Below are positions 3,668 through 33,208 of a stretch of 33,208 bases of DNA, piece by piece (positions within the stretch are counted from its first letter, which is position 1; each line of letters opens with the position of its first letter). Location of the stretch: positions 1 through 33,208 of the forward strand of contig JAJFLR010000094.1 in the NCBI GenBank assembly GCA_021772565.1, written 5' to 3'. This DNA comes from Opitutales bacterium. Its GTDB lineage: Bacteria; Verrucomicrobiota; Verrucomicrobiia; Opitutales; JAJFLR01. Made by a program: the position numbers and the translations under genes. The notes below the pieces were generated by a model. That model was not told the origin of the DNA. It saw nothing but the letters and a program-made list of their open reading frames with translations, and ran no database searches.

Positions 3668-4106
3668 GAACAAAAACGTGGCACACAAAGGCTACATAGT
3701 CAAGAAATTAATTGTCGACGTCTGGAATAAGATAACACTGCCAAATCGTACATTTTTCAGTATAAGACGTTTCCTGAATCCAAGACTCGAATGAATCAGC
3801 TGACCTTCATTAAAATTATGGCCCGATATTCGCAGTCATCTCTATCTGGATACCATTTTTAATAGGCTCTTATTACTGAATTTCTTGCTCTGTTGAGAAG
3901 AAAATCAGTGATATGAGACTAATCCCAATCTCCAATTCGAAATTGAAGGATATCTCACTACGGGCTTGGTACGTATTTGAAGGATGTCGTTATTTCATTC
4001 ATCGGTACGTAATTAAGCTTTGACTCCCTCCACTATAAAATAGCTTGCATCATCAAATTTAATTATTTTTATTTTTCATTTCTGATTGCTGCCCTCAAGA
4101 TATCAT
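3668..4106. other. Intergenic region without a recognised gene
   Basis: About 440 bases lie between the divergent toxin-antitoxin operon and the giant gene at 4107. It must hold both promoters. A direct repeat GGTACGTA occurs at 3968-3975 and 4004-4011. AT-rich sequence precedes the giant gene, with TTGACT at 4020-4025 and TATAAA at 4034-4039. Their spacing of 8 bases is too short for a canonical sigma-70 promoter. No tRNA, convincing ORF or terminator was seen. Confidence 0.5.
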
Positions 4107-7100
4107 ATGAACTGTATTATCCAACTTTTACTTTCGATTCTATTAAGCTATTTTATCGTATGTGATTGTCGTGCGGGAATTAAAATTAATGAAGCAGCAG
4201 AACCGAATCGTGCTCCGATTATTCAATTTAATAATATAGATGATCAACTCGGAACTGTTGTCGGCTGGGGGCGAAACGATTTTGGCCAGGCCACCCCTCC
4301 GGAAGGTTTGCAAGATGTGATTTTTATTTCTGCCGGGAATGATTTCAGTCTGGCGCTAAAAACCGATGGCACAGTTGTCGGCTGGGGAAGGAACGATCAA
4401 GGCCAGGCAGCGTCTCCAAATGGTTTAACTGATGTAATAGCAATTGCTGCAGGTGGACAACATAGTCTTGCTTTAAAAAATGATGGAACAGTCATCGGTT
4501 GGGGCAATAATTCAAAAGGCCAAATCAGTATTCCAAACGGTTTGATAAATGTAACGGCAATTTCCGCAGGAAACAGTCACAGTTTGGCTTTAAAATCTGA
4601 CGGCACTGTCGTCGGTTGGGGAGATCACACACTTGGCCAGATCACACCTCCTTCCGAGTTGAGTAATGTGATAGCGATTGCAGCGGGCAACGACCACAGT
4701 TTAGCTTTAAAAAGCGATGGCGTAGCCGTAGGCTGGGGGAAAAATAATTTTGGACAAGCCGGTTTAGCGGATGCTGAATTAATATACAATGCATTAAATG
4801 GAAGAGCTGGATCTCCGCTTCAACTAAATAAATTTGATTTGATTTATTCAATTCCCAAATTTGATCCGGACTTGGGAACATTGAATAATGTTACAGGAAC
4901 TCTGACTGGAACTGTTACTGGAACCAGTCAGCTTGAAAGTGAGGATGATACCTCAACAAAAGGAAACCTTTTGAGAATGAGTGTGAATTTCAATATCGAA
5001 GATCCGGAATTTTCCGGTGACTTGTTTTTTGTTAATGCAATATCACAAACATTTCATAATTTGGGTGCATTTGATGGTAAGGCAGATTTTGCCGGAGCAT
5101 CCGGTGTATCTGTTACTTCTGCAGAAAGTGATTCAGATTCATTCACTTTTACAGATTCTGGAATTCTGGATTTATTTTCAGGTATCGGCAATATTGATTT
5201 GGGCGGATCTATGATTGGGACATCATTTGCTGCCGGACCAAGATCACTTATTTCTAGTTTTACTGTTTTTGCATATGCTAATTTTGAAGTTAAATATAAT
5301 TATACTGCAAAATCGGATTCTTTTTTCAAAGAAATTTCAAAAATCGCTGCAAATGGCAATCACAGTTTAGGCTTAAAGAGTAATGGAACGATAATAGGCT
5401 TGGGAAGTAGAGATGACGGTCAAATCACTCCACCAAATGGATTGAATAACGTGATTGCATTAGCTGCCGGTAATATTCACAGCCTGGCTTTAAAAAACGA
5501 CGAAACAGTTATAGGATGGGGAAGCAATAATGATGGTCAAACCACAATCCCTGAAGGATTAAAAGAAGTAATAGATATAACTGCAGGAAATTTTCATAAT
5601 TTAGCCTTAATCCGCAAAAGGACGATAACGTCATCAGGAAATGAAGAGACGCCATTGACCGTAACTTATGAAGATATCGTTACATCTCTTGGAATTGAGG
5701 ATTTAGATGGGAATGGTTTTATTCTGCAAATAGAAGCGGTTAATTCTGGAACATTGACTAAGGGGAGTATAGCCATAGTGCCCGGACAAACAGAGATTAA
5801 AAATGGAGAAAGCATTGTGTGGACACCCGAAGAGAATCAAAATGGAGTGATTGATGCTTTTAGTATTAAAGCCTATGATGGGGAATTATTTTCAACTAAA
5901 AGTGCAAAGGTTCTAATTGATGTTAAAAATATTAATGACCGACTGGAGTTGATCAGTGAACCTGTTTTTGAGTTAAGAGACTCTGAAGAGTATTTATATA
6001 AAATAGTGATTGATGATAAAGGTGACCATGGTACTATAGAGCTGATTGGCACTTTAATTCCAACATGGTTAAATTTCGATACTGAGAGTGGATTATTGAG
6101 CGGGACACCGGAAATTAGTGATGTAGGTGAACACACTGTAAAATTGTTAATCAGAGATGGTGAGTTTGAGGTAGAACAGATTTTTACAATAACAGTTAAA
6201 TTTTCTAAATCACCGGCGACACTCCCAAATTTGAAGTTGTCTAAATCGGGATTTATCAGAGCGATGGTTTTTCAAAATGATGGAAAGCTCATCATTGGCG
6301 GTGACTTTACATCTGTAAATGGGGTGCCCAGAAATAACATCGCACGTCTTAATACCAATGGCTCTGTAGATTTAACCTGGAATCCGAATATTAACAGTGA
6401 CAAAAAATTTATCTCACCAAGTTTATTGATTGATAGTAACTCAAATTTTGAAGATCAGGTTAATGAATATGGTATAGTCAATACCCTGACTATTACGAGT
6501 GAAAGTAATAGTTCTGTAGTTGAAGATCTATTTATTGGCGGCAATTTTAACTCAATACATGGAATTCCTGTAAATAAATTGGCTAGAATAAGCATCAATG
6601 GAAATGGAGAGCCAGATGATTCATTTGATTTTACCGGCAGTGAATTATTTTCTGAAATTAGAGCTGTTGTTGCAGACAAGAGATCATTGCAAATTTTTGT
6701 TGGCGGAGTAGTAAATAATGAAAATGAAGAACTAATCCCGGGAGTTGCAGGCGTAAATTATGTAAATGGACAAATTGATCAAAATTGGAATCTACCACTG
6801 TCTTCTGTACAAGCGGGTATTATAAATGGTGTAAATACGATAGCACTCAGTGGCGAAAATATATTTATCGGCGGTCAATTTGTTCATGCAGAAACTAATT
6901 TAAAATATGTCATTAATGTAGATGTGAAAACGGGTGCTGTTAATGCAGAATGGCGTCCGGGTATCAGCTCAATTGTAAATACGTTATCAATTTATAATTC
7001 ACATATATTTATCGGAGGAACAAATACTCTGGTAAAAGTGAACCGCATGGGAGATGGCACAATTGATGCCTCTTTTGACAGTGGGGTAGGAAGTGGAAGT

Positions 7101-10100
7101 AATGATGAACGAGTAACAAGCAGTTCAATAAAAGGAGATGAATTATTTTATGTTAAGGAAAAGCTGGAAGTAATCGGTAGTGGATCCTCTTCTTTAAAAC
7201 TCAGACGGTTTGATATCGAGAAAATAAATATCTCAGACAATACCAGAGGGAGTGAATTTAAATATGATGAACAACAGCCTAACTTTATCAGTTCTGTTAT
7301 TGCTAAAAATGACTCTGTTTTTATCGGTGGCACAATTAATGTAATTGATGAATCAATTTCTTTAGGGATGGGGAAATTAGATTTATTTACAGGGGCAAAA
7401 GATTTAACCTGGCCCGTTCAGGTCGAACAACCGGGAAGTGTCAAAGCACTAGTTCGTCAACTGGATGGAAAATTAATTGTCGGAGGTGATTTTTTATTGG
7501 TCGATGGAGTGGAGAGAAGAAATATTTTGCGTGTCGATGCTGGTGGAGTACTCGACAGAAATTGGACTCCGGCGGCAGACGGGCCGGTTAATGATTTGCA
7601 AATTGATGAGACCGGCAGATTTTTATTTGCTGCGGGAAACTTTCAAAATATTGGCGGATTACATCGACCCGGTGTGGCAAAACTCAATCTTGTTATATCT
7701 GATAACTCTGTTGAAGAGTGGAATCCATTTGCTCCCTATTCGAGTTTGGAAAATGAAGTAGATTTTACTGTGGATGAAGTTGGGATTAAAACTATTGAAC
7801 TGAATGATGGCTATCTCTATTTAGGCGGAGCATTTTCCATACCCTGCAGCAGCTGTAGTTCACAATCTATGAATGGATTAGTTAGAATTAATGTGTTGGG
7901 AAATGGCTCTATAGATACAAGCTGGAAGCCAATAGACACAGCCATTTCTTCTATTGATGTGAATGATATTCTCATTGATGATATTCATGTTTACATCGGT
8001 GGAAATTTTCTGTTTTCAAATGATTCTCAGTTGGTTTTAAGAATTAATGGAACGGGGGATTTAGATGACAATTGGAAACCGGCCAGAGGTAAGGACAGTT
8101 TGGAGAAGGCAAATACGTTAGCCAAAAATAACAATAATTTATATCTGGGAGGAGATTTTACTGCAGTAGGTGGTCATGTTATTAACGGGCTATCTCGCAT
8201 TTCTTTAGTTGGGACAAACAAAATTGATACTGACTGGAATCCTGTAATAAAAAATAGTCGGTCGGAGAAAATTGAAATATATGATCTCAAATTACTCGGT
8301 TCTGTTTTATATCTTGCCGGAGAATTTACCAATATTGGCAATCAGATAAAAACAAATCTGGCAAAGATCAAAGATTTTAATTTTAAAATTGAAGCTGACC
8401 GGAGCCTTGATTTTGAGATCAATGATACAGTTAGGACTTTGCTGCTGAATGGTGAAGATGTCTATGTGGGGGGTGATTTTACCGAAATAGTGGGCAAGCC
8501 CAGATTGGGTCTTGCTTATTTACCAAAACTGGATGCCCCGGTATTGTTGCAAACTTCTACCGGTAGTTTTGTCGTAAAAAGAAATATACTGGATGGCGAT
8601 GAAATAACTCACTTTAATATCACCGATATTCAAAATGGAAAATTATTTAAGAGTAACGGAAATATCCAGATCAGTTCTGGTGATTTTATAACCATTGAAG
8701 AAGGAGAAGCCGGATTGCAGTTTTCCGAAAATGGTTCTGTCTCAATCGTCTCATCACTAAGCGATACCACAGAGGGTGCAGGTATAGAAGAGACAACATT
8801 GATTATGGGACAATCGAGTCTCAAACGACTGTATAGTTTTACTCAGTCTGAATATGAAATTAATGAGCCGGCTACCGGATTTGCATCTATTGCAGCTATA
8901 ATAAATAAACTGGGTAGTGGATCGGGATCTGTTGGTTTTGTCACTGAAGATGGGACAGCATTTGACGGCTCCAGTTATTTCAGTCAAAATTCTGTTGCTA
9001 ACTTTTCCACTGTATCAAATCAATTTCCGGCTACCGCACAGATTCTGCACGATGGGGAGAATACGGGAGAAATTGTTTTTTACCTGCACCTCCAAAATCC
9101 GGATAGTAATAGCGCTTTGGCTTATCCTACAACGACGTTAATTAAAATTATTGACTATGATATTACCGGGTCGGCTGAATCTCAATTGGAGCGTACTCTG
9201 CCTCCAATTGTATTTGATGCCAATGGTATTATTAAAATAAATATTGACCAGCCAGCCAATATCAATGGGCAATGGCGTTTATTGGGAGATATTAAATGGC
9301 TAGATAGCGGTAAAAGCAAAATTGGTCTGACTACGGGAAATTATCTGATAGAATTTAAACCGGTCAGCGGATATGATCATCCACCATTTACAACTGTTCC
9401 GGTGACCTCAGGAGAAACTACTGTTGTTCCACTCAATTCAGCTCAATATACCAGAATTGCTGACACTAATGTCGGTTCATTGAGTGTGGAGATATTTCCT
9501 TCAAACATTGGTGGACAATGGCGCGTTGAAGGATCAAGTATTTGGAGAAATCACGGGGAAACTGTTTCAAAACTTTCCATCGGAAACCATGTAATTGAAT
9601 TCAGAGATGTTGCCGGATATTCTACTCCACCTAACCGGAATGCCAGGGTAGCCCCAAATCTTGTAAGTAAGATTAAAGAGAACTATTTATTATCGGATAC
9701 GACGTTTGGCGTGACACCGAAAAAATTGAATCTTACAGAAGTAACAACAAAGCCACCTTATTTTTACAACGGACTGATACAGTCAAGCATTGGAATCGGA
9801 AGTGGTGTAGTTGTAAAAAAAAGAGTCGTACTCACTGCAGCGCATGTTTTGTTCGACGACTTTACGCTGAGTTATGTAACTTTCCCGCGTTGGATATATC
9901 GCAAACATAGTAATGAGTTTGAATCGCCACTCAAACGGCCTCGAGGTTGGGTAGTCTTTTCCGGATATCAAAAACAGAGAGCCATAGACGACACGCCCGG
10001 ATTTTCCACACCTGAATCTCAAAATCTCGATATTGCCGCGCTCTATTTTTTTAGTGATGCCGGCGAGGGTGGATTCAGCGGCTATCTGGTAACTGACCCC

Positions 10101-11123
10101 GATAATGAATGGTTGACTGGTAACACTGATAAAATATTGGTCGGGTATCCGATTGATAAAATCACCGAATCAGACAGGGGGAAAATGCATGCTACGCCTC
10201 AGGGCAACTACAGTTTCACTAAAGCAACCGGCAATGTCTATGTCTCAACTGATATAAATAGTTTTGAAGGAAATAGCGGAGGACCGTTAATGGTGAAAAA
10301 TAATGGAAATTTTTATCCGGCCGGAATTTATTTGGGTGGAGACAAAGAAGCGATAGTAAGAGCCATTGACCGAAGTGTTGTCGATCTTATTAATAAAGCC
10401 GAAACTGCCGCAACCGGCGGCGGAAATAAATTGAGTGGAGGAGCCATATTTGTCGAGCCTGGTGTAACTAAAAATCTATTTCAAATTGGTACATTGACTG
10501 TACAAATTGAGCCCAATGTTGCAGCAAGGTTTGCTAAGTGGAAAATTGCGGAATTCAGTGATGATTTATTTGAAAGTAAAAAGCAGATAGCTTTAATACC
10601 AGGTGAGTTTATCATAGAGTTTTTACCGATTAGCGGATACACAACACCATCACAAAGAGTAGTAGAGGTCGTAGCAAATCAGTCATCATTGTTACTGGCA
10701 AATTATTTAGCCAATTTTGATCATTATGGTCAATGGCGAATAGATAAGTTTGGATCGTCAATACTGGCAATACCGTCCTTACAATCCACATTTTGGGGCG
10801 ATCTTGCTAATCCGGATGGTGATCAACTCAATAATATTCTGGAATTTTATATGGGTCTGGATCCGAAAAATAATGATCGATATAATGCTGATGAACCCTA
10901 TTTAAAAGCAATCAGTAACGGCATCCTATTACGCCGTTCAAAAAATGTAATAGGTTTGGATGCCAGAGTCGAATGGTCATCTGATTTAAAGAACTGGAAT
11001 ACTGAAGGGTTGACTGAAAAAATGATGAAAGACCTCGGTGATGCAGAGCTTCTCGAAATAACATTACCAACGAATGAAAATAGAAATATAGTCTTTTTCA
11101 GAATCGTCATCATTCCCGATTGA
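4107..11123 (+). CDS. Protein A: giant secreted RCC1 / delta-60 / trypsin-like protease protein
   Basis: 2338 residues, counted from the ATG at 4107. The frame also opens at a TTG 7 codons earlier, but the ATG gives a signal peptide (MNCIIQLLLSILLSYFIVC, likely cleaved after CRA). Domains in order: five RCC1 blades (about 49-221; motifs GWGxNxxGQ and AGNxHSLALK); a choice-of-anchor E-like insert (about 228-400, PKFDPDLGTLNNV); two more RCC1 blades (about 408-505); a cadherin-like domain (about 511-608); a He_PIG-type Ig domain (about 612-701); a long delta-60/DUF5122 propeller-like region (about 706-1478, GKLIIGGDF repeats); a Calx-beta-like domain (about 1577-1685); two QWR repeats (about 1709-1852); a trypsin-like protease with His1913 (LTAAH), Asp1975 (NLDIAAL) and Ser2057 (GNSGGP); a third, degenerate QWR-like repeat (about 2130-2200); and the shared C-terminal module (NPDGDQLNNILEF, then EWSSDLKNW). 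It is predicted to be an exported surface protease/adhesin. Substrate unknown. It is monocistronic and convergent with protein D. Confidence 0.9.
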   Translation: MNCIIQLLLSILLSYFIVCDCRAGIKINEAAEPNRAPIIQFNNIDDQLGTVVGWGRNDFGQATPPEGLQDVIFISAGNDFSLALKTDGTVVGWGRNDQGQAASPNGLTDVIAIAAGGQHSLALKNDGTVIGWGNNSKGQISIPNGLINVTAISAGNSHSLALKSDGTVVGWGDHTLGQITPPSELSNVIAIAAGNDHSLALKSDGVAVGWGKNNFGQAGLADAELIYNALNGRAGSPLQLNKFDLIYSIPKFDPDLGTLNNVTGTLTGTVTGTSQLESEDDTSTKGNLLRMSVNFNIEDPEFSGDLFFVNAISQTFHNLGAFDGKADFAGASGVSVTSAESDSDSFTFTDSGILDLFSGIGNIDLGGSMIGTSFAAGPRSLISSFTVFAYANFEVKYNYTAKSDSFFKEISKIAANGNHSLGLKSNGTIIGLGSRDDGQITPPNGLNNVIALAAGNIHSLALKNDETVIGWGSNNDGQTTIPEGLKEVIDITAGNFHNLALIRKRTITSSGNEETPLTVTYEDIVTSLGIEDLDGNGFILQIEAVNSGTLTKGSIAIVPGQTEIKNGESIVWTPEENQNGVIDAFSIKAYDGELFSTKSAKVLIDVKNINDRLELISEPVFELRDSEEYLYKIVIDDKGDHGTIELIGTLIPTWLNFDTESGLLSGTPEISDVGEHTVKLLIRDGEFEVEQIFTITVKFSKSPATLPNLKLSKSGFIRAMVFQNDGKLIIGGDFTSVNGVPRNNIARLNTNGSVDLTWNPNINSDKKFISPSLLIDSNSNFEDQVNEYGIVNTLTITSESNSSVVEDLFIGGNFNSIHGIPVNKLARISINGNGEPDDSFDFTGSELFSEIRAVVADKRSLQIFVGGVVNNENEELIPGVAGVNYVNGQIDQNWNLPLSSVQAGIINGVNTIALSGENIFIGGQFVHAETNLKYVINVDVKTGAVNAEWRPGISSIVNTLSIYNSHIFIGGTNTLVKVNRMGDGTIDASFDSGVGSGSNDERVTSSSIKGDELFYVKEKLEVIGSGSSSLKLRRFDIEKINISDNTRGSEFKYDEQQPNFISSVIAKNDSVFIGGTINVIDESISLGMGKLDLFTGAKDLTWPVQVEQPGSVKALVRQLDGKLIVGGDFLLVDGVERRNILRVDAGGVLDRNWTPAADGPVNDLQIDETGRFLFAAGNFQNIGGLHRPGVAKLNLVISDNSVEEWNPFAPYSSLENEVDFTVDEVGIKTIELNDGYLYLGGAFSIPCSSCSSQSMNGLVRINVLGNGSIDTSWKPIDTAISSIDVNDILIDDIHVYIGGNFLFSNDSQLVLRINGTGDLDDNWKPARGKDSLEKANTLAKNNNNLYLGGDFTAVGGHVINGLSRISLVGTNKIDTDWNPVIKNSRSEKIEIYDLKLLGSVLYLAGEFTNIGNQIKTNLAKIKDFNFKIEADRSLDFEINDTVRTLLLNGEDVYVGGDFTEIVGKPRLGLAYLPKLDAPVLLQTSTGSFVVKRNILDGDEITHFNITDIQNGKLFKSNGNIQISSGDFITIEEGEAGLQFSENGSVSIVSSLSDTTEGAGIEETTLIMGQSSLKRLYSFTQSEYEINEPATGFASIAAIINKLGSGSGSVGFVTEDGTAFDGSSYFSQNSVANFSTVSNQFPATAQILHDGENTGEIVFYLHLQNPDSNSALAYPTTTLIKIIDYDITGSAESQLERTLPPIVFDANGIIKINIDQPANINGQWRLLGDIKWLDSGKSKIGLTTGNYLIEFKPVSGYDHPPFTTVPVTSGETTVVPLNSAQYTRIADTNVGSLSVEIFPSNIGGQWRVEGSSIWRNHGETVSKLSIGNHVIEFRDVAGYSTPPNRNARVAPNLVSKIKENYLLSDTTFGVTPKKLNLTEVTTKPPYFYNGLIQSSIGIGSGVVVKKRVVLTAAHVLFDDFTLSYVTFPRWIYRKHSNEFESPLKRPRGWVVFSGYQKQRAIDDTPGFSTPESQNLDIAALYFFSDAGEGGFSGYLVTDPDNEWLTGNTDKILVGYPIDKITESDRGKMHATPQGNYSFTKATGNVYVSTDINSFEGNSGGPLMVKNNGNFYPAGIYLGGDKEAIVRAIDRSVVDLINKAETAATGGGNKLSGGAIFVEPGVTKNLFQIGTLTVQIEPNVAARFAKWKIAEFSDDLFESKKQIALIPGEFIIEFLPISGYTTPSQRVVEVVANQSSLLLANYLANFDHYGQWRIDKFGSSILAIPSLQSTFWGDLANPDGDQLNNILEFYMGLDPKNNDRYNADEPYLKAISNGILLRRSKNVIGLDARVEWSSDLKNWNTEGLTEKMMKDLGDAELLEITLPTNENRNIVFFRIVIIPD

Positions 11124-11178: not shown

Positions 11179-14100
11179 CTATAAATTTACTTTAAACTGT
11201 ACAAAAAACGAACGTTCTCTCGGCAGTTCTAATATGGGACTCAGAGGGGCCACTTGAAAATCCTGGTCATTAATATTTACAACGCCGAAAGTGATATCCC
11301 AAAGTCGACCTGCTGCACGGTAGCCAAAAAATGCATCCAGTTGAAAAATATTTTCATTGGGTAAATTATGATTATTCTGAATAAGCCATTTCCCTTCGGC
11401 TTTACTAAAAAATCCACTGGCATGATTGTAAATAGCATAAATAGATGGAAGTTGTAATGTTGATTGAGAATTGCTGATGGCTCCGGCAGTCACTGTCTGC
11501 GGGATCTCTGGAAAACGACGATCAAGTTCCGATTGGATAAATTCATAACGACCACCGATTGAAATATTTTCACCATAAAGTTTATTAACCGTTACGGAAA
11601 ACCTTTTTTCCTCATAATCTAATTCTTCCAGCGTTGAGGATTGAGAAAACATACCGGCGTTGACTCTTCCAAAAACACCAATCGTTCTGTCAACGTTAGC
11701 TTCTAATAGTTCAGCCTGTATATCAATAAAAGTAGTCTCGTTAAATTTCCAGGTTGTGCCTACACCAACTGTTTCAAATTCAGGCGCCTCTACTGAACCG
11801 GCGACCGACTCAGGAATCAATGATCGAAAGCCTTGCACAAATCCTGATAGCTGAACCGGTTCCAATCGAATACTTTCATCGAAACTAACACCGCCAAGAG
11901 CTTGCGTGTAAACTGCTCGAAGCGTGATGTTAGAACTCAGATTCCAGGTTAACCCAACTTTTGGTGAGACTTGATCTTTGTCATTAGTTCCATCTGAAAC
12001 GGGCAATGATCTGAAATTTATCGGATACTCTATATAATCATAGGTAACGCCGGTAGTAAAACTAATTGAATTGAAAACTTTCCAATAGTAATATCCGTAA
12101 GCACTGAATCTAAAAAAATCTGTTGTAAAATCTGAATTGGCAGCCGGATTGCTGGTGAAAAATGGAGTGAATATGGGATTACTGGAAGCTATTAAATTTT
12201 TCGAATTGAAATCACCGAATTGAACTCTTGTTCCCAAATTGAGTGTGGTTTTTTCTTTTTGAAATATTTGATTTATTTCAGCAGTATATATTTCAAGTTT
12301 AGATTCGTAATCAATGTCTGTAAGAAATCCTCCTACGCCAGTTACATTGCCAGCTCCATTGCCAGCTCCATTGCGAGTAACACCGGTTATAATAGATGAT
12401 CTATCACTAAACATTTGTTTGTTTTCCAAGCGTCCACCGAGAATCAAAGTATCCACACCGGGTGCCCAGTGGTGATGGTAGCCAACTAATGCTATCGGTA
12501 ACTGCTCCTCTGAAAAATCAAGTTTTGGTCGGGCTGTGGCAGCATTTTGTCTTAAAAATAAATCACCGCTGGTATAGTCTTGAAATTTAGTTTGAAAAAA
12601 TAACGTTCCCTTAGGTGAGAGCTGATGTTTCAATTGTGTAAACACTTCAAGGCGATCAAAATTGTTGTTAGTACGAAATCCATCGAATGTATGATAGTCC
12701 ACATCAATTGAATAACTAGTTTTATCGTAAATTCCATATTGCGAAACTAATTGACGAAATTCACCATGACTAAAGTAAGTTGATTGAGCATTAACTCCCA
12801 ATTTGTTTTTTTCAAATAAAGAGGAATATTCTTGTAGCGAGACGTGTTGGGATAATGTTCCTGCATTTACCGGTGAGAGTAGATTGGCCAATAACAATTC
12901 ATTAAACCAGGCAGTTTCATAACGGAGCTGAATCCTTTTTGGATCGCGTAAAGCATCGTAACTGTTAGCCAGAAATAAATGCGAAGAATAATTTGAATAA
13001 TCATTCTCGACCGCTTTTGTCGCCTCACGGATACTGATATCTGTCATGCCAAGATTTTTATAGATAGATGCCAGGTTAGCACTGCGCACAGAACTATCTT
13101 GATCGAGTAGAAACTTAGAGCGATACAATCTTCGGTTGTCATTTAACTGCAAAGATTTTTCCATATCAGAAACAGCTTTGTTGTAACGATTGATTTGCTG
13201 ATTATGCAGAGCGGAATAGAGCAGGGGTGTAGGATCGTTTGGGTCTAAATTTTTGGCTAGTTGCAATTCATTTTCTGCTTTGGCAAATTCATTATTATTG
13301 AATAAAGCTTTAGCTAAATAACTGCGCAGTATCGATCTATTTGGTTCGAGTGCTGCAGCTATTTTCAATTTTTGAATACCCGTTATTGAACTGCCTTTTC
13401 GAATATCAATCAGTCCGCTACCGAGCCAGGCATTAGCTAAAGCACTATCTAATTTTATAGCTTGCTCAAAACTGTTTTTAGCTTTTTCCAGTTTATTCTC
13501 ACCAGCCTGTAAAAATCCAATAATGGTCAATGCCTGAGCATTTTGCGGAGAAACTGCTAAACACTTTTCAATTGCATAAAGTGTATTGTCTCTATTGCCA
13601 AAACTAAATTCAAGCTCTGCCAATCGAGCCCAGGCATAGCCAAAATTGGGCGACAACTCAGTTGCTTTTTTGGCTGCATCTAACGCGTCTGCTAAATTAC
13701 CTGATACTTGTAAGGAATAGGAGCGCGCTAACCACTGAGAACTGCTGACAGGTTCATTAGATAAATTCTGATGATCTCCTTTAACAGTTGCTATTAGCTC
13801 AACAACTGCATCTTTTAATTTTTTTGATATCTGATTGTTACTAAGTAATTTCTCAGAACTCTTCACTTGTCCAGTAGCTAATAATAAACCAGCTAAGTAA
13901 ATACGTTCATTTTTCGAATTAAATTTTTTTGTAGCTGGAAAACTCTTCAATGCATTTAATAAATTACCCGATTGATAATGACTGAGAGATTTAGCTAATT
14001 TATTTCTTTCACTCGGTGTGAAATTTATTTCGTTCAAATCAATAATTGCAGGATAATAAAGAGACCACTGTATTGTATTAACTACGTTGATGATCGCGGA

Positions 14101-14703
14101 TTTTTCAGGTTTGTGTCCGGTTTGTATGGTTGCTATTTCACCACCGGAAAGAGATAAATTTCCTTTATCTGTTGTTAAATCAACGTTCCCGTCAATTAGG
14201 GTTAACACATTGCTACCATCATTTTCAATGTGCAGTTCAAATTCTGTACCTTTGATAGCCGCAGTAGTCACAGCAGTAGTCACTTCAATTGTTTCTGGGT
14301 TTTCCCTGCTAAAAAAATAGAGTGCCCCTTTTTTTAAATTAACAGCAGATTTACTGATCTTTTTTGTCGGTGCTCGAAGTAATATACTGCTAAATTCATT
14401 TAACCGCAGGACAACCCCGGTTGGCATTTGAATTGCAGCACGACTGTATTCTCCGGTTCTAATTTTATCTCCGTAGTGAAATTGTTGATCATTTATAGCA
14501 GTTACCCAAGGGGATCCCTTTTTTGAAAACTCCACTACACCTTCACTTGAAATTAGTGTTATCGGTGATTCATTGCCGTTTGTTGATTGAAGCAATAGCA
14601 AAAAGCTAAACAGAGTGAATAGAATATTGAAGAACTTATTGTAACTAATTTTTTGCCACAGAACTACATGGATAATCGCGGACTTTATTTTGATTAAACT
14701 CAC
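11179..14703 (-). CDS. Protein D: FecR-domain / TPR / outer-membrane beta-barrel fusion
   Basis: 1174 residues from a GTG at 14703. An extended N-region precedes a hydrophobic signal segment (about residues 24-42, FFNILFTLFSFLLLLQS). A FecR-like domain follows (about 52-200: GVVEFSKKGSPW, GDKIRTGEYSRAAIQMP, then TTAAIKGTEFELH). Next comes a TPR region with at least seven helical pairs (about 232 and 322-582; for example AWARLAELEFSFGNRDNTLY). About 560 residues of alternating aromatic strands complete the protein and end in RSFFVQFKVNL, resembling a TonB-dependent-receptor-type barrel. I see no plug domain or TonB box. FecR and TPR modules would be periplasmic and the barrel in the outer membrane. 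The gene starts 46 bases after the stop of B on the same strand, so co-transcription with the giant proteases is likely. It could be a substrate channel, or a receptor or secretion partner for B and C. That role is inference. Confidence 0.85.
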   Translation of the reverse strand: MSLIKIKSAIIHVVLWQKISYNKFFNILFTLFSFLLLLQSTNGNESPITLISSEGVVEFSKKGSPWVTAINDQQFHYGDKIRTGEYSRAAIQMPTGVVLRLNEFSSILLRAPTKKISKSAVNLKKGALYFFSRENPETIEVTTAVTTAAIKGTEFELHIENDGSNVLTLIDGNVDLTTDKGNLSLSGGEIATIQTGHKPEKSAIINVVNTIQWSLYYPAIIDLNEINFTPSERNKLAKSLSHYQSGNLLNALKSFPATKKFNSKNERIYLAGLLLATGQVKSSEKLLSNNQISKKLKDAVVELIATVKGDHQNLSNEPVSSSQWLARSYSLQVSGNLADALDAAKKATELSPNFGYAWARLAELEFSFGNRDNTLYAIEKCLAVSPQNAQALTIIGFLQAGENKLEKAKNSFEQAIKLDSALANAWLGSGLIDIRKGSSITGIQKLKIAAALEPNRSILRSYLAKALFNNNEFAKAENELQLAKNLDPNDPTPLLYSALHNQQINRYNKAVSDMEKSLQLNDNRRLYRSKFLLDQDSSVRSANLASIYKNLGMTDISIREATKAVENDYSNYSSHLFLANSYDALRDPKRIQLRYETAWFNELLLANLLSPVNAGTLSQHVSLQEYSSLFEKNKLGVNAQSTYFSHGEFRQLVSQYGIYDKTSYSIDVDYHTFDGFRTNNNFDRLEVFTQLKHQLSPKGTLFFQTKFQDYTSGDLFLRQNAATARPKLDFSEEQLPIALVGYHHHWAPGVDTLILGGRLENKQMFSDRSSIITGVTRNGAGNGAGNVTGVGGFLTDIDYESKLEIYTAEINQIFQKEKTTLNLGTRVQFGDFNSKNLIASSNPIFTPFFTSNPAANSDFTTDFFRFSAYGYYYWKVFNSISFTTGVTYDYIEYPINFRSLPVSDGTNDKDQVSPKVGLTWNLSSNITLRAVYTQALGGVSFDESIRLEPVQLSGFVQGFRSLIPESVAGSVEAPEFETVGVGTTWKFNETTFIDIQAELLEANVDRTIGVFGRVNAGMFSQSSTLEELDYEEKRFSVTVNKLYGENISIGGRYEFIQSELDRRFPEIPQTVTAGAISNSQSTLQLPSIYAIYNHASGFFSKAEGKWLIQNNHNLPNENIFQLDAFFGYRAAGRLWDITFGVVNINDQDFQVAPLSPILELPRERSFFVQFKVNL

Positions 14704-14749: not shown

Positions 14750-17700
14750 TTATCGCAAAATTTTCAGACGAAAAAATTCAGGATTATTATCTGTTGGAGA
14801 TATCCTGCGATATTCAGCTCTTTCAGAAGTGCCATTATTTGATGGTTCAGGCAGACCCATTGGTTCAAGCATATTAATTGCAGATTGCCAGTTTGTTAAA
14901 TCTGATGACATCTCTAAATTATATGTAACATTATTGATTTCATAGTTAACATCGTTACTAACTTTTCCACCACGACGTCGTCGATAGGACAGGTGTGTAT
15001 AGTTTTTTCCGTCCAACATGTTCTTTACTATGCTCACAGTCAGAGGTAGCTCAAATCCGGCCAGCTTAGGTGATGTATCCAGTGCGTATTCCAGAAGTGT
15101 CGGGATACCATCTTCGTCCGGATCCGCCAAGTCATTAACAATTGAATTATCGTTTATTTCATTTGCTGTAAAATTCTCAATTTTCCAAATATCGATGTCA
15201 CTTGATTCATCAATTGTAATTTTTGTTTCAGAAGGGGTTAACAAGATTAATCCTTGTTGATTAATTTCTGGTGCTAATAGTCGAACTTGAAATTGCTCAC
15301 CGTCATCTGCAATACTATCATTAATTATCGGAATCGATATTGATTGCAGTGTTTCACCATTACTAAAAGTTAGAGTGCCACTTTTATTTTCGTAATCTTC
15401 ACCCGAAACAGCCGTAATTTCCCTTGTTTCATATCGTACCTGAACATCACCTTTTGGTGGATTTATTAATTGAGCTACCAGTTCTATAATTTCACCTCCC
15501 TCAGGTACAGTCCTGCTTGCTGAATCAAATCTCACACCACTTAGATTAAAAGTGCCTATATCAAACTGATTGCCTGTTAAAATTGCTCCGCTATTAAGAA
15601 TTGTTTTATTCAAAGCTTCTACTCGAAGTTCAGCATCAATCACTTTTTTAATTATTTGTTGATCTATTGCTCTGACCAGGACTTGTTGGTTGCGAGCGAG
15701 AATTATACCTGCCGGTAAAAATATTTTACTATTTTTATTATCAACTTCTACATAAACAGGTCCACCACTGTTGCCGGCATAAGTTTGCAAATCATTGGTA
15801 CGAAATACCCAATTGCTCCTGCCATTATTATCGGCATTTCCAGCGAAGCGTGAAAAAGTAGTTTCACCTTTGGGCTGTGTTCCAAACATTTTTCCACGAT
15901 TGTCATTGGCTATAAAATCTGCATCTGTTGGATAGCCGACGATCATTTTTTTACCGGATGATTTTAGCCAACGATCTTCAACTGTTTTGGATCTTAAATA
16001 GCCGCCGTAGCCGTTACGACCTGCAGGCTCAACAAAAAATAACGCGGCAGCATCAAGGTTTAAAGTTTCGAGTGTCGAACTGTTTATATCTAAATCAGTA
16101 TTTTCACTATCCAATTTTCGTTGACTGGCATAACCGTCTAAAATTTCAGATCCTCGCGGCACCAAAGGTTTTGGTTCAAATGCGCCTCGCTGTTTTTGAA
16201 AGAGCCATCTAACGTTACTTGCGATAACTAATGCCTCCGGGTCAAAAATTACATGAGCCGCAGTAAGAACAACTCTTTCTCGAACAACAAATCCACTTCC
16301 TTCACCGAATTCTGTTTGAATCTGACCATTGAAGTAATAAGGTGCACCCATGGCTGACTGGGCAAATGATAAGGGCGTTACCGGATCTCCTGTAAGATTA
16401 TTACTACGTAATGAATAGACTCCTTTCGCAGAACTTCCCTGTTGATTGAATAATCGGATATTTCGACTAAAGGGTGTTTGCCAACCCTCAACAAATTTAA
16501 ACTCAATAGTATACAACCCTTCGGCAAGACTAGAAACAGTTGTTTGGTTTCGCCACTCCTGCTCACCGGCAAATCGCCACTGCGCCCCTTCATCTTTAGC
16601 CAACTGCGGTATTATTTCAACTGTTACCCAAGCAGTTAAGGGTGCGGTATTTTGTGAATATGTCACTTCGTTTCCATCCATAACGGTTGTCTCTGCGGAT
16701 CGGACTACGGCAATAGTTTCATTCGGTGGTGTCCAGTTAGGCAGTGGCTTAAATTCAATACTGTAGTTTCCTTCAGGTATGATGACACGTTCACCACTTT
16801 GGCTACTCCATTGTCTTTCACCGGTAAATCTCCATTGAGCACCGGTTGCATCTATTGGCTGAAGATTGACTATCAGTGTTCCCGTCGTCGGCTGATTATC
16901 AGGTGGAACGATATCAACTAGCGATTCTGTAAGTGTGTCTGATTCCTCTTCATTATCTATTATGAATACAGTTGCAATAGAGGGTGATGTCAATGCTCCG
17001 CCCAAACTGTTTATCGATAAATTCAAATTGACTCCAAACGATTCTGTTCCTTCACCAAAATTATCATCCAAAATCGGTATCTCAATTTTCTTTGACACGG
17101 TATCTCCATTATCAAATACAACTATACCCGTTGATAAATTAAAATCGCTACCCGCATTTGCTGTAACGTCGATTGTATTGTACTGCAGTTCAATTTTTCC
17201 GTTAGATCCGTTAATGCGTTCAATAAATAAAGTTACACTTATTTCGCTTTCACCGATAAAATATTCTTTTTCAGTAAATCTTAAAAATCCTCCGAGACTT
17301 TCATTACTTAATATATTTACGGTTAGTTCACTTGGTGAACCTAAAAGAGCATTCTGTGGATTAGATAGATTAATAAATACCGTTTCAATAGTTTCCTCGA
17401 TTAAATCGTCGCGCAATTTCAATTTAAAACTGCTTTCGATTTTACCCGGGAGAAATTCCAGTGTTCCACTAACGGGTATGAAGTCGCTTTCAGGAGTTGC
17501 TGTTCCTGTAGTTGAATTAAAATCAACTTTTACCGTACTACCGCTTGCCTTAGAGAGCAAAGCGACAATTTCAACATCACCCACTTCTTCTCCTACAGTT
17601 AATGTTCTAAAATCAAAAAATACCAATGGTTGGTTTGTCTTATCCTCATCAATAATTGTCACCGTTGCCATATTGGGTTCGCTTATCAACGGTGTTAAAT

Positions 17701-20700
17701 TTCCTTCAATTTCGCTTAAGGCAACTTTGAAAGAAACATCTCCATTTTGATCGCTATCATTTATAATGGGAATATTAATTGTTTTAATAGCGTTATCGTT
17801 ATTAATCCATTTTAATGTGAAGTTGGTTAAGGGACTATAATCTACATTATTTTTTGCAGAGTCCTCTATTGTAGAAAAATTTACTGAAAGTTCTCCATGC
17901 GAGCCATCTATTCTTTCAACGGAAATTTGGACTGATGAACTGTTTTCATTTACACTAAAGTTATTTGATGTAAATCGTACTTTACCGATAGATAAACCGT
18001 TTATACCGGTAAATACATGCACGGCGTTTTCTTTATGTGCAAGCTGATCACTAACGATCAGTGAGTCATTATCCAGATCTAAATCTCCTGCGAATCCCAG
18101 TCCTTGTTCTATAGCTTTATCCGGTGAAATAATTTCAGTTAGTCCCCAATTATTTGGACCACCGACGTTACGACCGTACAGGAACACTGCGCCAAAAAGT
18201 ATTTTTGTTGAATCTCCATCAAATTGAGGGTTTTCGGTAAATAGATTAAACCCTCGACCACCTACTGCTATCGTATCATTCTTAATTACAACTGGAGAGT
18301 TATAATCTGTGAATACATCGACATCCTGAAGTTTTAATTGGGTGACTTCTTTCCATTGGTTGTCTCCATCGAGATTCCACTCAAAAACAAAAGCATGTGT
18401 TCGGGAATCATTAAAAATCCCACCTCGTTGAATTTGTAGACCAGAGACGATAGTATTTCCACTTATAGAGACATCATCGCCGAAAAAACGCGATCCTGAG
18501 ATATTCTCGACTTCCAATTTAGAGGTTTGAGCCCAGTCTGTGGAACTCATTGTACTACGTTCAAAAACATAAATTGCACCTTGTGATGATGAAGAAAAAG
18601 GTGCTCCGGCTAACACCCGTGTTTTATCAATTGCCACAGAAGTGCCAATACGTTGATTTTCAGGCTGTTCATTTGGGGACAGTTTTTTTACTTGCTGCCA
18701 TATTCCAGTTTTATCAGATTTTTCAAAGACATAAACCGCACCCCTCTTATTATCGGCTTTCCATGCTCCAACAACTACGCTGTTTCCCTGAATGGCGGCC
18801 GATAATCCAAATTCGGCCGTTGGTTGTTTATCAGCGGGAAGTAATTTTTCTATAAGCTCCCACTTATCAGTACCATCTAGTTTGCGACTGTAAATATAAG
18901 CAGCACCGGCATCCGTTCCACCTTCATCATCATTGGGTGCTCCGACTACGATTGTATCCCCATAGATATCAACATTCGAAAATATAATCTCTTCTGAAAT
19001 TACACTGTGAAAAGGAATGGCCCATTTATCTTCCAAAACCCAATTGTCACTACCTGGGCTTGTTCTTTTGTATACATGAACTTCACTCGTAAAGTCATTA
19101 TTATTTATCAATCCTACTGCAACTCGATTTCCACTTACGGCAATTGTGGAACCAAAATAGACTTTTTCCTGAAGGTTTTCAACAGTTAACGCCTGTTTGA
19201 AATTTTGTATAAAACCGAAATTTCGGTTATCAATAATATGATTAGGTTTTGCATTGATACTGTAATGTCCATTAGGTCCTGGAGATTGCATGATGTATCC
19301 AACATGAAGCATGACTCTGACATTATATGTTTCTGGGGCTGGAAGATCAGCAAAAGTATATTTGCCATTAGTGTTTGTTTTACTAATAGGATCATCGAAG
19401 TCTCTTTTACCATCATTATTTAGATCAAGGTATACTGAGATATTGGAAATGCCTGATTCTTCCTCGTCTTTGATATTATTACCGTTACTGTCGAGAAAGG
19501 CAAATCCACTAATGTGAGTTGCAGGGAAGTATTCAAAGGCCCCAATATCCACTACAAATATACTGTCATTGTTGCCATCTTCCGGTCTTACAAAGCCTCG
19601 TTGATCAGTTAAGGGTGCTTCAAAGTTATCTCCTGTATCAATAGCCGGACTTCCCGGTTCTATCGGATGTGATAGTGTTCCATTCCGACCGGATGCAGAT
19701 ATCATTTTCAGTATAGGGTCAACATCGAGTTGATCAGTATTTATGTAACCTGAACCACCGAAAGAATTTCCAATAATATTAAATCCCTTGCTGGAGATAT
19801 TCCCGCTAATATCATTACCGGATTGTGAGCTTACATTCCCTGAAAATATACTGTTTTTAGGAATTATTGCTGATGAAGCGTCAGTTTCTGATGTTACTAC
19901 ATTGTTAGCGCCACCTCCATTTATTGCTTTGTTTGATGTTACAGTACAGTTAGTTATACTCGTATTTGCAAAACTGTTTGTTCCATCATTTGAATTATAA
20001 ATTCCTCCTCCATTTCCGTTATTACCAGAAATCTCATTGCCGGAAATTGTGCTATTAGTCATAGTAGTTGCAGCAGTAGATTTTTCTTTTATCAATATAT
20101 TTGGGTTTTCATTGGCTTCAGGTGCTTGTGCTGAATTATGGATTCCTGCTCCGTTACCACCGGCAATCTGATTATTATAGATTGCTGAATTTGTTAGATT
20201 AATAGTTGCAACTTGATTTCCTAAACCAACCTCACTCCTTGAGTAATTATTGATTCCTCCACCATCATTATTTGCTAAAGATCCACTAACGTTATTTTGA
20301 AAAATATTACACTTATCAATAGTCACATTACTTGTGATGTAACTTGCATAATTATTCAATCCACCTCCTGAGTTTTTAGTAGAACTACCGTTTCCCGTAA
20401 CAGTATTTCCGGAAATATTACAATGATTCAGATTTGTTTGATAGCCATCAATATAAATTCCGCCTCCTGCGTTTTGTAATGCATTATCACCGGTAACAGA
20501 GTTCCCTGATATTAAAGTATCAGTAAAATTAATATTTCTTTCATTATAGTAATAAGTTTCAGGTGCTGCATTCCATAAAGATATACCACCCCCATTATTA
20601 TATGAATCAGTTGAGCCGACTACCTGATTATCAATGATCTCACTGTCGGAAATTGTCAAATTAGGCTCGATATAATATATACCGCCACCGGAGTTGTAAA

Positions 20701-21997
20701 TATTGTCATTGCCGGTAACTGTATTTGCGGAGACTGTACAATTATTGAGAGTGATTTTACCAAGATTACCGAATATTCCTCCCCCACCTACGGCGTGATA
20801 TTTTTCATTTGCATTGATATTTGCAACCACACTGTTGCCTGTAACAATACAATTATTGAGTTCCAGAATTCCAAAATGAGAATAGATTCCGCCACCCGAT
20901 AATGCAGCTCGCGCATCACCCGGATCATACTTATTGACACTCAATTTTCCGCCGGTTACAGTCACGCCACTGAGGTTAAATTCAAATCCCGGATGAACGT
21001 GAAAGACGCGGTCAATTTCTTTAGCGTCGATAATCGTAGTATTCGGACTAGTACCGATAATTGTTAAATCATCTCTAATATCAAGATCACCGGAACGTGT
21101 AAAATTTTCAGAAGCACCTGCTACACTAAGATTATAATTTCCCGGCGGTAGAATGATTGTGTCATGGCCCGGTTTATTATTGGCCAGGTAAATTGCCCAT
21201 CTAAGTGAATTACGTGGCGCATCCTCAGTTGTAGTCACTGGTGGTATTATAATATCAGTTCTCTGCCCTAATATTTCCAGATTTACGGTAAAGGAAACAT
21301 TCGGGTTATCAGGATCATTCGAACTGAAATTAATTTTGCCGGTATGAGGTCCTGTTGCGAGATTGACTGTGCTAATAATTAATGAACCAGTTAATGTTTG
21401 CCCTGTTGGAATCGAAACATTCTGCGAACTATTAATTATTAACCAATCAGTGTCAGTTTCTCTTGTGATATTTAGTGGTGCTGTTCCAATGTTCTCAATT
21501 TTATATGTAATAATTTCCAGTAACCCTTCATACAAAGAAATATCAGTCGATTTCACTGCTAAATTTATTTTGGGGCTTGGTGGGGCAGTGACAGTTAAGG
21601 ATACCGGACGGCTGACAAATACACCAGATAGTAGATCTCGAACAATCAATATATCGTTATAATTACCCGGAGATAACCCATTTGTGTTTACTCTTACTGA
21701 AATATTTCTGCTGCCAAAGGAGGGTGAAAATGGTATTGATCCTGAACTTGAACTGACACTTAACCAACTGGAAGATTTTTGTTCGGTGATACTGTATGAT
21801 ATTGCAAAAAACCCTGATTTTGCAATAGTGAGTGTTTTGCTACTGCTCTCTCCTTCATTATGTGTAAAACTAAAAGATGTGGGTAAAACTGAATATTGTG
21901 CATTAAGCGTTTGTAAACTAAGCAGAGAAAAAATTAACAGACAAACTAGCAATTTAAGATTAGATTCTAAGCTAATAGATCTTCGTATTTGAGCCAT
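14750..21997 (-). CDS. Protein B: giant secreted beta-helix / FG-GAP propeller / Calx-beta / protease protein
   Basis: 2415 residues from the ATG at 21997, with a signal peptide cleaved near LNA33. Domains in order: a BACON-like domain (35-137); a choice-of-anchor D/HYDIN-like Ig domain (about 142-245); a right-handed beta-helix with NSGGGI and GNTVTGN rungs, ending in a choice-of-anchor Q motif (about 255-823; PAIDTGDN, DIGAFEY); an SdrD-B-like domain (about 825-930, DSNGNNIKDEEESGI); a seven-bladed FG-GAP-type propeller (about 936-1333, GAVYVFE strands); three Calx-beta domains (about 1338-1680); two QWR repeats (about 1703-1846); a trypsin-like protease with His1915, Asp1982 and Ser2077 (AGNSGGP); a fourth Calx-beta domain (about 2153-2265); and the C-terminal module (DPDEDGIPTLLEYAL, SYRRRRGG, FFRLKIL). 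It is a close paralogue of protein C from the beta-helix onward but has about 240 extra N-terminal residues. Predicted to be exported and surface-associated; calcium binding is expected from Calx-beta and FG-GAP. Confidence 0.9.
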   Translation of the reverse strand: MAQIRRSISLESNLKLLVCLLIFSLLSLQTLNAQYSVLPTSFSFTHNEGESSSKTLTIAKSGFFAISYSITEQKSSSWLSVSSSSGSIPFSPSFGSRNISVRVNTNGLSPGNYNDILIVRDLLSGVFVSRPVSLTVTAPPSPKINLAVKSTDISLYEGLLEIITYKIENIGTAPLNITRETDTDWLIINSSQNVSIPTGQTLTGSLIISTVNLATGPHTGKINFSSNDPDNPNVSFTVNLEILGQRTDIIIPPVTTTEDAPRNSLRWAIYLANNKPGHDTIILPPGNYNLSVAGASENFTRSGDLDIRDDLTIIGTSPNTTIIDAKEIDRVFHVHPGFEFNLSGVTVTGGKLSVNKYDPGDARAALSGGGIYSHFGILELNNCIVTGNSVVANINANEKYHAVGGGGIFGNLGKITLNNCTVSANTVTGNDNIYNSGGGIYYIEPNLTISDSEIIDNQVVGSTDSYNNGGGISLWNAAPETYYYNERNINFTDTLISGNSVTGDNALQNAGGGIYIDGYQTNLNHCNISGNTVTGNGSSTKNSGGGLNNYASYITSNVTIDKCNIFQNNVSGSLANNDGGGINNYSRSEVGLGNQVATINLTNSAIYNNQIAGGNGAGIHNSAQAPEANENPNILIKEKSTAATTMTNSTISGNEISGNNGNGGGIYNSNDGTNSFANTSITNCTVTSNKAINGGGANNVVTSETDASSAIIPKNSIFSGNVSSQSGNDISGNISSKGFNIIGNSFGGSGYINTDQLDVDPILKMISASGRNGTLSHPIEPGSPAIDTGDNFEAPLTDQRGFVRPEDGNNDSIFVVDIGAFEYFPATHISGFAFLDSNGNNIKDEEESGISNISVYLDLNNDGKRDFDDPISKTNTNGKYTFADLPAPETYNVRVMLHVGYIMQSPGPNGHYSINAKPNHIIDNRNFGFIQNFKQALTVENLQEKVYFGSTIAVSGNRVAVGLINNNDFTSEVHVYKRTSPGSDNWVLEDKWAIPFHSVISEEIIFSNVDIYGDTIVVGAPNDDEGGTDAGAAYIYSRKLDGTDKWELIEKLLPADKQPTAEFGLSAAIQGNSVVVGAWKADNKRGAVYVFEKSDKTGIWQQVKKLSPNEQPENQRIGTSVAIDKTRVLAGAPFSSSSQGAIYVFERSTMSSTDWAQTSKLEVENISGSRFFGDDVSISGNTIVSGLQIQRGGIFNDSRTHAFVFEWNLDGDNQWKEVTQLKLQDVDVFTDYNSPVVIKNDTIAVGGRGFNLFTENPQFDGDSTKILFGAVFLYGRNVGGPNNWGLTEIISPDKAIEQGLGFAGDLDLDNDSLIVSDQLAHKENAVHVFTGINGLSIGKVRFTSNNFSVNENSSSVQISVERIDGSHGELSVNFSTIEDSAKNNVDYSPLTNFTLKWINNDNAIKTINIPIINDSDQNGDVSFKVALSEIEGNLTPLISEPNMATVTIIDEDKTNQPLVFFDFRTLTVGEEVGDVEIVALLSKASGSTVKVDFNSTTGTATPESDFIPVSGTLEFLPGKIESSFKLKLRDDLIEETIETVFINLSNPQNALLGSPSELTVNILSNESLGGFLRFTEKEYFIGESEISVTLFIERINGSNGKIELQYNTIDVTANAGSDFNLSTGIVVFDNGDTVSKKIEIPILDDNFGEGTESFGVNLNLSINSLGGALTSPSIATVFIIDNEEESDTLTESLVDIVPPDNQPTTGTLIVNLQPIDATGAQWRFTGERQWSSQSGERVIIPEGNYSIEFKPLPNWTPPNETIAVVRSAETTVMDGNEVTYSQNTAPLTAWVTVEIIPQLAKDEGAQWRFAGEQEWRNQTTVSSLAEGLYTIEFKFVEGWQTPFSRNIRLFNQQGSSAKGVYSLRSNNLTGDPVTPLSFAQSAMGAPYYFNGQIQTEFGEGSGFVVRERVVLTAAHVIFDPEALVIASNVRWLFQKQRGAFEPKPLVPRGSEILDGYASQRKLDSENTDLDINSSTLETLNLDAAALFFVEPAGRNGYGGYLRSKTVEDRWLKSSGKKMIVGYPTDADFIANDNRGKMFGTQPKGETTFSRFAGNADNNGRSNWVFRTNDLQTYAGNSGGPVYVEVDNKNSKIFLPAGIILARNQQVLVRAIDQQIIKKVIDAELRVEALNKTILNSGAILTGNQFDIGTFNLSGVRFDSASRTVPEGGEIIELVAQLINPPKGDVQVRYETREITAVSGEDYENKSGTLTFSNGETLQSISIPIINDSIADDGEQFQVRLLAPEINQQGLILLTPSETKITIDESSDIDIWKIENFTANEINDNSIVNDLADPDEDGIPTLLEYALDTSPKLAGFELPLTVSIVKNMLDGKNYTHLSYRRRRGGKVSNDVNYEINNVTYNLEMSSDLTNWQSAINMLEPMGLPEPSNNGTSERAEYRRISPTDNNPEFFRLKILR

Positions 21998-32458: not shown

Positions 32459-33208
32459 AGGTAGTGTTGTTGCTTTTTCAAAAAAGCATTAATTAATTGC
32501 TCTTGGGTATGGAAAAACACTGGAGATATTCCCAAGATGTTAGGTGAATTAAATCTAAACTCAAAGAAAGTTCCAGTGTTAATTAAAACCTTATTAAATT
32601 GTTGTCATCCACTCAAGTGTTTTGTTTATGAGAAAGCCTCAAGGACATTGATAAAGGGCAAGGAGGCTATTGTCGTTAAAATTGTTCCTCGCAAAAACAG
32701 TAAGCCGATTTGCTCAGGCTGCAATAAAGCACGAAGATGTTATGACTGCACAAAGTCGACTCGGCGGTTTCAGTTCATTCCAATCTGGGGCTTTCAAGTT
32801 TACTTTTTATATTTGATGCGGCGGGTTAATTGCTCAACCTGCGGGATAAGAGTTGAAAGTGTGCCTTGGGCACAAGGCAAAAATCGACTGACTCAAGCCT
32901 ATCAATGTTTTTTAGCTCAATGGGCGAAACGACTGAGTTGGAAAGAGACCGCTGAGGCTTTCCAAACTTCATGGGACAATGTGTTTAACTCGGTGAAAAT
33001 GGTAGTTAAATATGGTCTGAAGAACCGGAATTTAGATGATATTACAGCCATAGGAGTAGATGAATGGCAATGGGGAATAGGACACAAATACGTTACGTTA
33101 GTTTATCAGATTGATGAAGGCCGGCGTCGCTTACTCTATATTGCCAGAAAACGCACGGTAAAATCCTTATTAGGATTTTTTCTAATGTTAGGTAATCAAA
33201 GAACAGAG
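32459..33208 (+). mobile_element. ISL3-family insertion sequence, left part (truncated by window end)
   Basis: The transposase of an ISL3-type element begins at 32537. The sequence just before it (GTAGTGTTG at 32461, then the small dyad GCTTTTT-CA-AAAAAGC near 32471) is a plausible position for the left end. The exact terminal inverted repeat cannot be fixed without the right end, which is outside the window. ISL3 elements usually make 8-base target duplications; this cannot be tested here. Confidence 0.6.
32537..33208 (+). CDS. ISL3-family transposase, N-terminal part
   Basis: An open frame of 224 codons runs from the ATG at 32537 to the end of the window without a stop. A GGAG lies 11 bases upstream of the start. 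The N-terminal zinc-finger region has paired cysteines C59/C62, C68/C71 and C99/C102 (CSGCNK, NCSTCG). It is followed by the ISL3 signature VPWAQGKNRLT and a helix-turn-helix-like stretch (LSWKETAEAFQTSWDNVFNSV). The start of the DDE catalytic domain, AIGVDEWQWGIGHKYVTLVY, gives Asp175 as the first acidic residue. These features match the ISL3 (zf-ISL3 plus DDE_Tnp_ISL3) family, whose full length is about 400 residues. The visible part shows no frameshift, so the element may be intact. Confidence 0.9.
   Translation, partial: MLGELNLNSKKVPVLIKTLLNCCHPLKCFVYEKASRTLIKGKEAIVVKIVPRKNSKPICSGCNKARRCYDCTKSTRRFQFIPIWGFQVYFLYLMRRVNCSTCGIRVESVPWAQGKNRLTQAYQCFLAQWAKRLSWKETAEAFQTSWDNVFNSVKMVVKYGLKNRNLDDITAIGVDEWQWGIGHKYVTLVYQIDEGRRRLLYIARKRTVKSLLGFFLMLGNQRTE

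Follow-up and report, generated by a model that had tools for sequence, protein, structure and literature searches.

The closest described counterpart of the system analysed here is NsrA of Sinorhizobium meliloti, which two papers present as the outer-membrane receptor for signalling through CyaK and CyaD1/D2 (PMC7529298; PMC13001267). According to them, these cyclases depend on NsrA to perceive a plant signal of peptidic nature, for which the ribosomal protein uL2 is named as the candidate, and signal-dependent activation of cAMP synthesis is reported (PMC7529298; PMC13001267). One of them assigns the barrel portion to residues 600-1200 (PMC7529298). The nsrA gene is located directly upstream of cyaK, the product of which consists of CHASE2 and cyclase parts. 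A cluster in Campylobacterota comprises a CHASE2 cyclase, a phosphodiesterase, a FecR-domain outer-membrane protein, and a TPR protein (PMC9239204), while the Burkholderia BiofilmReg operon encodes a LysM-FecR protein together with a CHASE2 histidine kinase (PMC5192318). The former has the CHASE2, FecR, TPR, and outer-membrane logic in common with the locus described below, but its FecR and TPR parts are encoded by separate genes. In the latter, as in the family described below, the gene for a FecR protein adjoins a CHASE2 kinase gene; however, this FecR protein is peptidoglycan-binding and has no described barrel or TPR. TonB-independent signal passage across two membranes is poorly understood, and little is known about the ligands and activation of CHASE2 proteins. 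A literature search found no paper describing FecR-TPR-barrel/CHASE2 systems in Verrucomicrobiota.

Gene and Domain Architecture

The window, i.e., the whole stretch of 33,208 nucleotides analysed (contig JAJFLR010000094.1 of an Opitutales bacterium), contains a gene, P0001, for a FecR-TPR-barrel protein. This protein is probably an NsrA-type trans-envelope receptor, the arm of which would act on an inner-membrane CHASE2 enzyme. Its features are as follows:

11179-14703, minus strand: FecR-TPR-barrel gene P0001, probable NsrA-type outer-membrane receptor (1174 aa, GTG start)
14590-14649, minus strand: signal-peptide hydrophobic helix, residues 19-38 (predicted), ahead of the FecR domain
14095-14562, minus strand: FecR domain, residues 48-203 (PF04773, E = 1.6e-14), with the fold of the PupR C-terminal cell-surface signalling domain
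12877-14085, minus strand: helical TPR solenoid, residues 207-609 (Pfam TPRs and predicted structure)
12805-12876, minus strand: segment between solenoid and barrel at the usual plug position, residues 610-633, within a conserved hinge (586-633)
11185-12804, minus strand: 22-stranded outer-membrane barrel, residues 634-1173 (PF00593, E = 1.7e-7; structure model, Z about 18-20)
11782-11895, minus strand: conserved 38-residue extracellular loop between strands 13 and 14, residues 937-974 (mean conservation 0.71)
11212-11277, minus strand: conserved extracellular loop between strands 21 and 22, residues 1143-1164 (mean conservation 0.72)

The Pfam matches of P0001, with the E values listed above, were FecR at residues 79-174 and, above the cut-off, TonB_dep_Rec_b-barrel at residues 739-937; TPRs were located at about residues 312-524. 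The Plug domain (PF07715) was not detected in the Pfam scan up to E = 1, and no TonB box, a short and degenerate motif, was recognised by eye. An early "PITLISS" stretch turned out to be the first strand of the FecR domain rather than a TonB box. The FecR domain directly follows the signal peptide, without a cytoplasmic anti-sigma domain or an inner-membrane segment before it. No sigma-factor gene was found among the large ORFs of the window, and no ECF sigma ORF adjoins the barrel gene. The barrel of Slam, the type XI secretion protein, has 14 strands. In P0001, which has 22, the Pfam model TPR_Slam reached 13.7 bits against a cut-off of 35.2, and the Slam barrel model gave no match. The Rfam scan of the window also gave no match.

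Predicted Structure and Conservation

The structure of P0001 was modelled with AlphaFold2 on an alignment of 72 sequences (pLDDT 89.6, pTM 0.86). The model comprises the signal-peptide helix (19-38), the FecR beta structure (48-203), the solenoid (207-609), and 22 barrel strands (634-1173), so that the barrel, put at roughly 560 residues in the original prediction, takes up about 540. The barrel turns are 2-5 residues long on the periplasmic side, and the extracellular loops are longer. A C-terminal Phe, the usual terminus of outer-membrane barrels, is present in 64 of the 72 relatives. Between the final solenoid helix and barrel strand 1 there are 24 residues, too few to accommodate a plug (about 130 residues); together with the Pfam scan, the model thus agrees with the earlier suggestion, made from the sequence alone, of a barrel without a visible plug.

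The barrel resembles TonB-dependent transporters (Foldseek E values down to 2e-14, Z about 18-20), and the FecR region resembles the PupR signalling domain (6ovk_R; Z 18.2, rmsd 2.1 over 135 residues); therefore, both halves of a FecA/FecR-like pathway are found in one chain. In the model, the TPRs join the barrel to the periplasmic signalling domain at the place of the plug. P0001 thus has the 22-stranded fold and the PF00593 match of FecA, FhuA, BtuB, and FoxA but, unlike these transporters, lacks a plug and a recognised TonB box and carries a FecR-TPR arm in front. With the FecR/PupR anti-sigma regulators, it has the FecR domain fold in common, whereas its FecR domain is placed on the outer-membrane protein itself, with neither an anti-sigma domain nor a sigma-factor gene. 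The arrangement suggests that a TonB-type barrel can be converted into a receptor by replacing its plug with a signalling arm. Apart from the two loops listed above, the mean conservation of the extracellular loops was 0.18-0.68; the solenoid and the pre-barrel hinge (586-633) were likewise well conserved.

Distribution and Relationship to NsrA

Full-length relatives of P0001 were found in 30 of the 286 genomes of the class, as well as in named Verrucomicrobiota and on at least one contig of Pontiellaceae (Kiritimatiellota). A total of 115 distinct FecR-TPR-barrel loci were examined, and the family alignment spans the full length of the protein. Since the architecture is kept full-length in more than 100 distinct loci, the union of a FecR-like domain, a TPR array, and a barrel in one polypeptide, as originally read from the sequence, is not due to chance; the family is real, well-defined, and widespread. 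The genome of the window encodes a second copy on contig C107 (41% identity to P0001). At C36:15240-15347, a short stretch of 36 aa with one stop resembles the barrel (E = 7e-4); its reading as the remnant of a third barrel was set aside because the match is too weak. One barrel copy in another genome (G248, locus L123, 9084-11473) is split over several frames and appears to be a decaying gene.

NsrA, which was located through its CHASE2 neighbour gene, has the same FecR-TPR-barrel order and length (about 1200 aa): FecR at residues 66-160 and TPRs at 378-587, followed by about 600 residues. All three parts are homologous. The P0001 profile matched the NsrA family with probabilities of 99.7% (FecR), 98.7% (TPR), and 96.7% (barrel), compared with at most 1.4% for reversed and shuffled controls, and BLASTP gave E = 3e-13; a tblastn search of P0001 against plasmids gave no match. 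NsrA also has no Plug match in Pfam, and its gene, as in the P0001 family, is upstream of and adjacent to a CHASE2 cyclase gene. The two proteins differ in belonging to different phyla and in having an identity of just 19-21%, because of which the ligand of P0001 need not be that of NsrA. By analogy with NsrA, this ligand is most likely a protein or peptide. NsrA, so far a rhizobial subject, is hereby tied to a broad phylum-wide system.

CHASE2 Partner Genes

A CHASE2 enzyme is the commonest neighbour of FecR-TPR-barrel genes. Among the 100 testable loci, i.e., those with 1.5 kb of downstream sequence, 56 had a CHASE2 gene in the same orientation no more than 1.2 kb downstream of the barrel, with a median gap of 66 bp (profile coordinates). 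In the 49 barrel loci with long flanks on both sides, CHASE2 was present anywhere nearby in 38 and absent in 11. At the genome level, CHASE2 was detected in all 30 barrel-positive genomes versus 154 of the 256 others; this test is weak because CHASE2 is common (184/286 genomes), and the argument rests on the adjacency counts.

All 71 partner proteins of barrel genes contained the CHASE2 domain, whereas their outputs varied: 53 cyclases, 9 Ser/Thr kinases, 5 histidine kinases with a receiver, and 3 TIR proteins. A signalling pair predicts a constant sensor with swappable outputs, and the partner pattern matches this. The barrel tree resembles the CHASE2 tree (Mantel r 0.80, 0 of 2000 permutations), a correlation that partly reflects shared species history. 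With relatives adjoining CHASE2 enzymes as NsrA does, P0001 most likely serves to receive signals at the cell surface, not as a pore for secretion. The signalling-receptor function, one of two proposed in the original prediction, is thus upheld by the full-length homology to NsrA, the conserved operons in which barrel genes are combined with genes for CHASE2 cyclases or kinases, and the PupR-like FecR fold. The more than 100 natural receptor-CHASE2 loci, with outputs swappable among cyclase, Ser/Thr kinase, histidine kinase, and TIR, open the coupling to co-evolution and chimera studies. In the three TIR cases among the 71 aligned CHASE2 proteins (loci L051-L203), a CHASE2-TIR fusion, a sensor coupled to a TIR output, is encoded beside the FecR-TPR-barrel gene.

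The contig of the window contains no CHASE2 gene. An orphan CHASE2 cyclase gene is present on contig C36 of the same genome (locus L211), and its product shares 48% identity, along its length, with the cyclase encoded directly downstream of the L052 barrel, which is the closest relative of the window barrel (50% identical). The two cyclases cluster in the tree as their barrels do. The CHASE2 distances correlated with the window-barrel distances with r 0.58 for C36, 0.35 for C100, and 0.18 for C107, and the C107 barrel adjoins its own CHASE2 histidine kinase. Judging from these sequence relationships, the C36 cyclase is likely the best candidate partner of the window barrel. Its gene (L211, 3212-4834) is convergent with a gene for a trypsin-like protein of the RILGG type (4918-6921).

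Co-Encoded Large Proteins and Alternative Functions

Three genes for large proteins, A, B, and C, adjoin P0001 or each other in the window:

14750-21997, minus strand: protein B, large secreted protein (BACON, choice-of-anchor Q, FG-GAP, Calx-beta, QWR repeats, trypsin-like protease, C-terminal domain)
15518-16894, minus strand: QWR and trypsin-like protease module of B, with invariant His, Asp, and Ser
22231-28812, minus strand: protein C, paralogue of B (45% identical), upstream of B
4086-11123, plus strand: protein A, convergent, with an RCC1-like N-terminal part and a QWR-protease module at 9213-10682
14753-15211 (B), 22234-22692 (C), 10677-11120 (A), and 31460-31909 (P0006): copies of a shared C-terminal domain

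The reading frame of P0001 begins 46 bases past the stop codon of B, the gap given in the original prediction, and the two genes are probably co-transcribed. The module of QWR repeats and trypsin-like protease is common to A, B, and C, and its His, Asp, and Ser are invariant. Full-length QWR-proteases occurred in 9 of the 286 genomes, and all nine were barrel-positive, in line with the co-occurrence of barrel and protease that had been put forward for checking; the Fisher value of 5e-10 ignores shared ancestry, and a single family contributes five of the nine genomes. For about half of the QWR-protease genes, a barrel is found no more than 12 kb away. The association is real, and the model contains a barrel, so neither of the two outcomes named as refuting the original prediction occurred; however, barrels do without a protease at many loci, and their more frequent partner is CHASE2.

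The same data bear on the other function originally proposed, that of a secretion or anchoring partner for B and C. As an export port, the plugless barrel would release or hold its giant neighbours, the TPR arm would capture them in the periplasm, and CHASE2 would report the export status. TPR arms precede barrels in the known exporters Slam, BcsC, and PgaA. The confinement of full-length QWR-proteases to barrel-positive genomes fits this explanation, as does the excess of large neighbours: an ORF of at least 1000 aa was the nearest non-CHASE2 neighbour in 16 of 55 barrel loci, compared with about 9% expected (p 2e-5). However, the domains of these neighbours vary (Ig, Kelch, FG-GAP, DUF5122, and others) and none is common to them, a QWR-protease is present at just 14 of the 49 well-flanked loci, and several are far from any barrel (on contig C65 of the same genome and in genomes G095 and G169). 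The barrel, with 22 strands, is of the TonB-transporter type, and the Slam models either fell far below the cut-off (TPR) or did not match (barrel). With the supposed cargo absent from most loci and without a common domain, the port explanation is weaker than the receptor one and appears unlikely; as a general function, secretion or anchoring of B and C is unsupported, given the absence of a protease from most barrel loci and the large distance of some proteases from any barrel.

The C-terminal domain of B also counts against a port, being found on many unrelated proteins of its own genome. This domain of about 150 aa (DPDxDGxxNLLEFAL..., with a beta-rich end) closes A, B, C, P0006, and at least nine other proteins of the genome. 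It had no Pfam or NCBIfam match, and its model (pLDDT 73.9) had no significant match in the PDB. It is possibly a sorting or anchoring domain; its role as a ticket for the barrel was dropped in view of the nine or more further unrelated proteins. SprA of type IX secretion (PF14349) had no match in the genome of the window, and the control genomes likewise gave none.

A TonB-dependent nutrient transporter, in which the plug has been swapped for the FecR-TPR arm and which still imports a ligand, would account for the similarity of the barrel to such transporters in sequence (PF00593) and fold (Z about 18-20), and the adjacent proteases could yield peptides for uptake. This explanation is weakened by the missing plug (Pfam and model) and the lack of a recognisable TonB box, and the conserved neighbours of the barrel encode signalling enzymes rather than uptake functions; it is very improbable. 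Signalling of the FecR type to an ECF sigma factor, by a single chain that unites receptor and regulator, would agree with the match to the PupR signalling domain but can be given hardly any credence: the signal peptide of P0001 is accompanied by neither a cytoplasmic anti-sigma domain nor an inner-membrane segment, no sigma factor is encoded among the large ORFs of the window, and the partners in other loci are CHASE2 enzymes.

Proposed Mechanism

As an NsrA-type receptor, P0001 would form a TonB-transporter-like, 22-stranded plugless barrel in the outer membrane, without evident TonB input. An external ligand would engage the conserved extracellular loops or the lumen of the barrel, and the TPR solenoid with the FecR domain would serve as a periplasmic arm that reaches the inner-membrane CHASE2 enzyme and alters its activity; the direct contact between barrel protein and CHASE2 is presumed. 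The enzyme is an adenylate/guanylate-type cyclase in most relatives, and a Ser/Thr kinase, a histidine kinase, or a TIR protein in some; the output of the pathway would be a second messenger or phosphorylation. For the window barrel, the unlinked C36 cyclase would be the likely partner. Proteins B and C would be co-encoded accessories, which may make the signal by proteolysis, be the ligand themselves, be regulated cargo, or combine several of these; a protease role for them in the pathway is, again, presumed.

The system is a variant of NsrA/CHASE2 signalling found in Verrucomicrobiota, and it adds two features. The first is output swapping, as its partners, in contrast to those in the NsrA system, also include Ser/Thr kinases, histidine kinases, and TIR proteins; the second is the co-encoding of giant secreted proteins and proteases. 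The window copy further differs from NsrA in that its likely partner is unlinked. More speculatively, and with the odds against it, receptor, CHASE2 enzyme, and giant QWR trypsin-like protease might constitute one system in some Verrucomicrobiota, in which cleavage of an extracellular target, or of the protease by itself, yields a product that is sensed by the plugless barrel and signalled onward through the FecR-TPR arm. If true, this would be a bacterial counterpart of protease-activated receptor signalling.

Other Features of the Window and Related Loci

The proteins of one family, c6, are about 400 aa long and have no confident Pfam match. Their genes recur in a subset of barrel loci, e.g., L118 (4654-5880) and L213 (12405-13601), where they are placed between those for CHASE2 and the protease, and a c6 gene pairs with the protease on contig C65 of the window's genome. 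Two QWR-protease modules are encoded per single frame (2704-5537 aa) in G242 (C13, 37061-42394, and C49, 21424-26790) and also in G233, G260, and G315. At the end of the window, positions 32537-33208 contain an open-ended ORF which, by eye, has the look of an ISL3-type transposase with a zinc-finger start.
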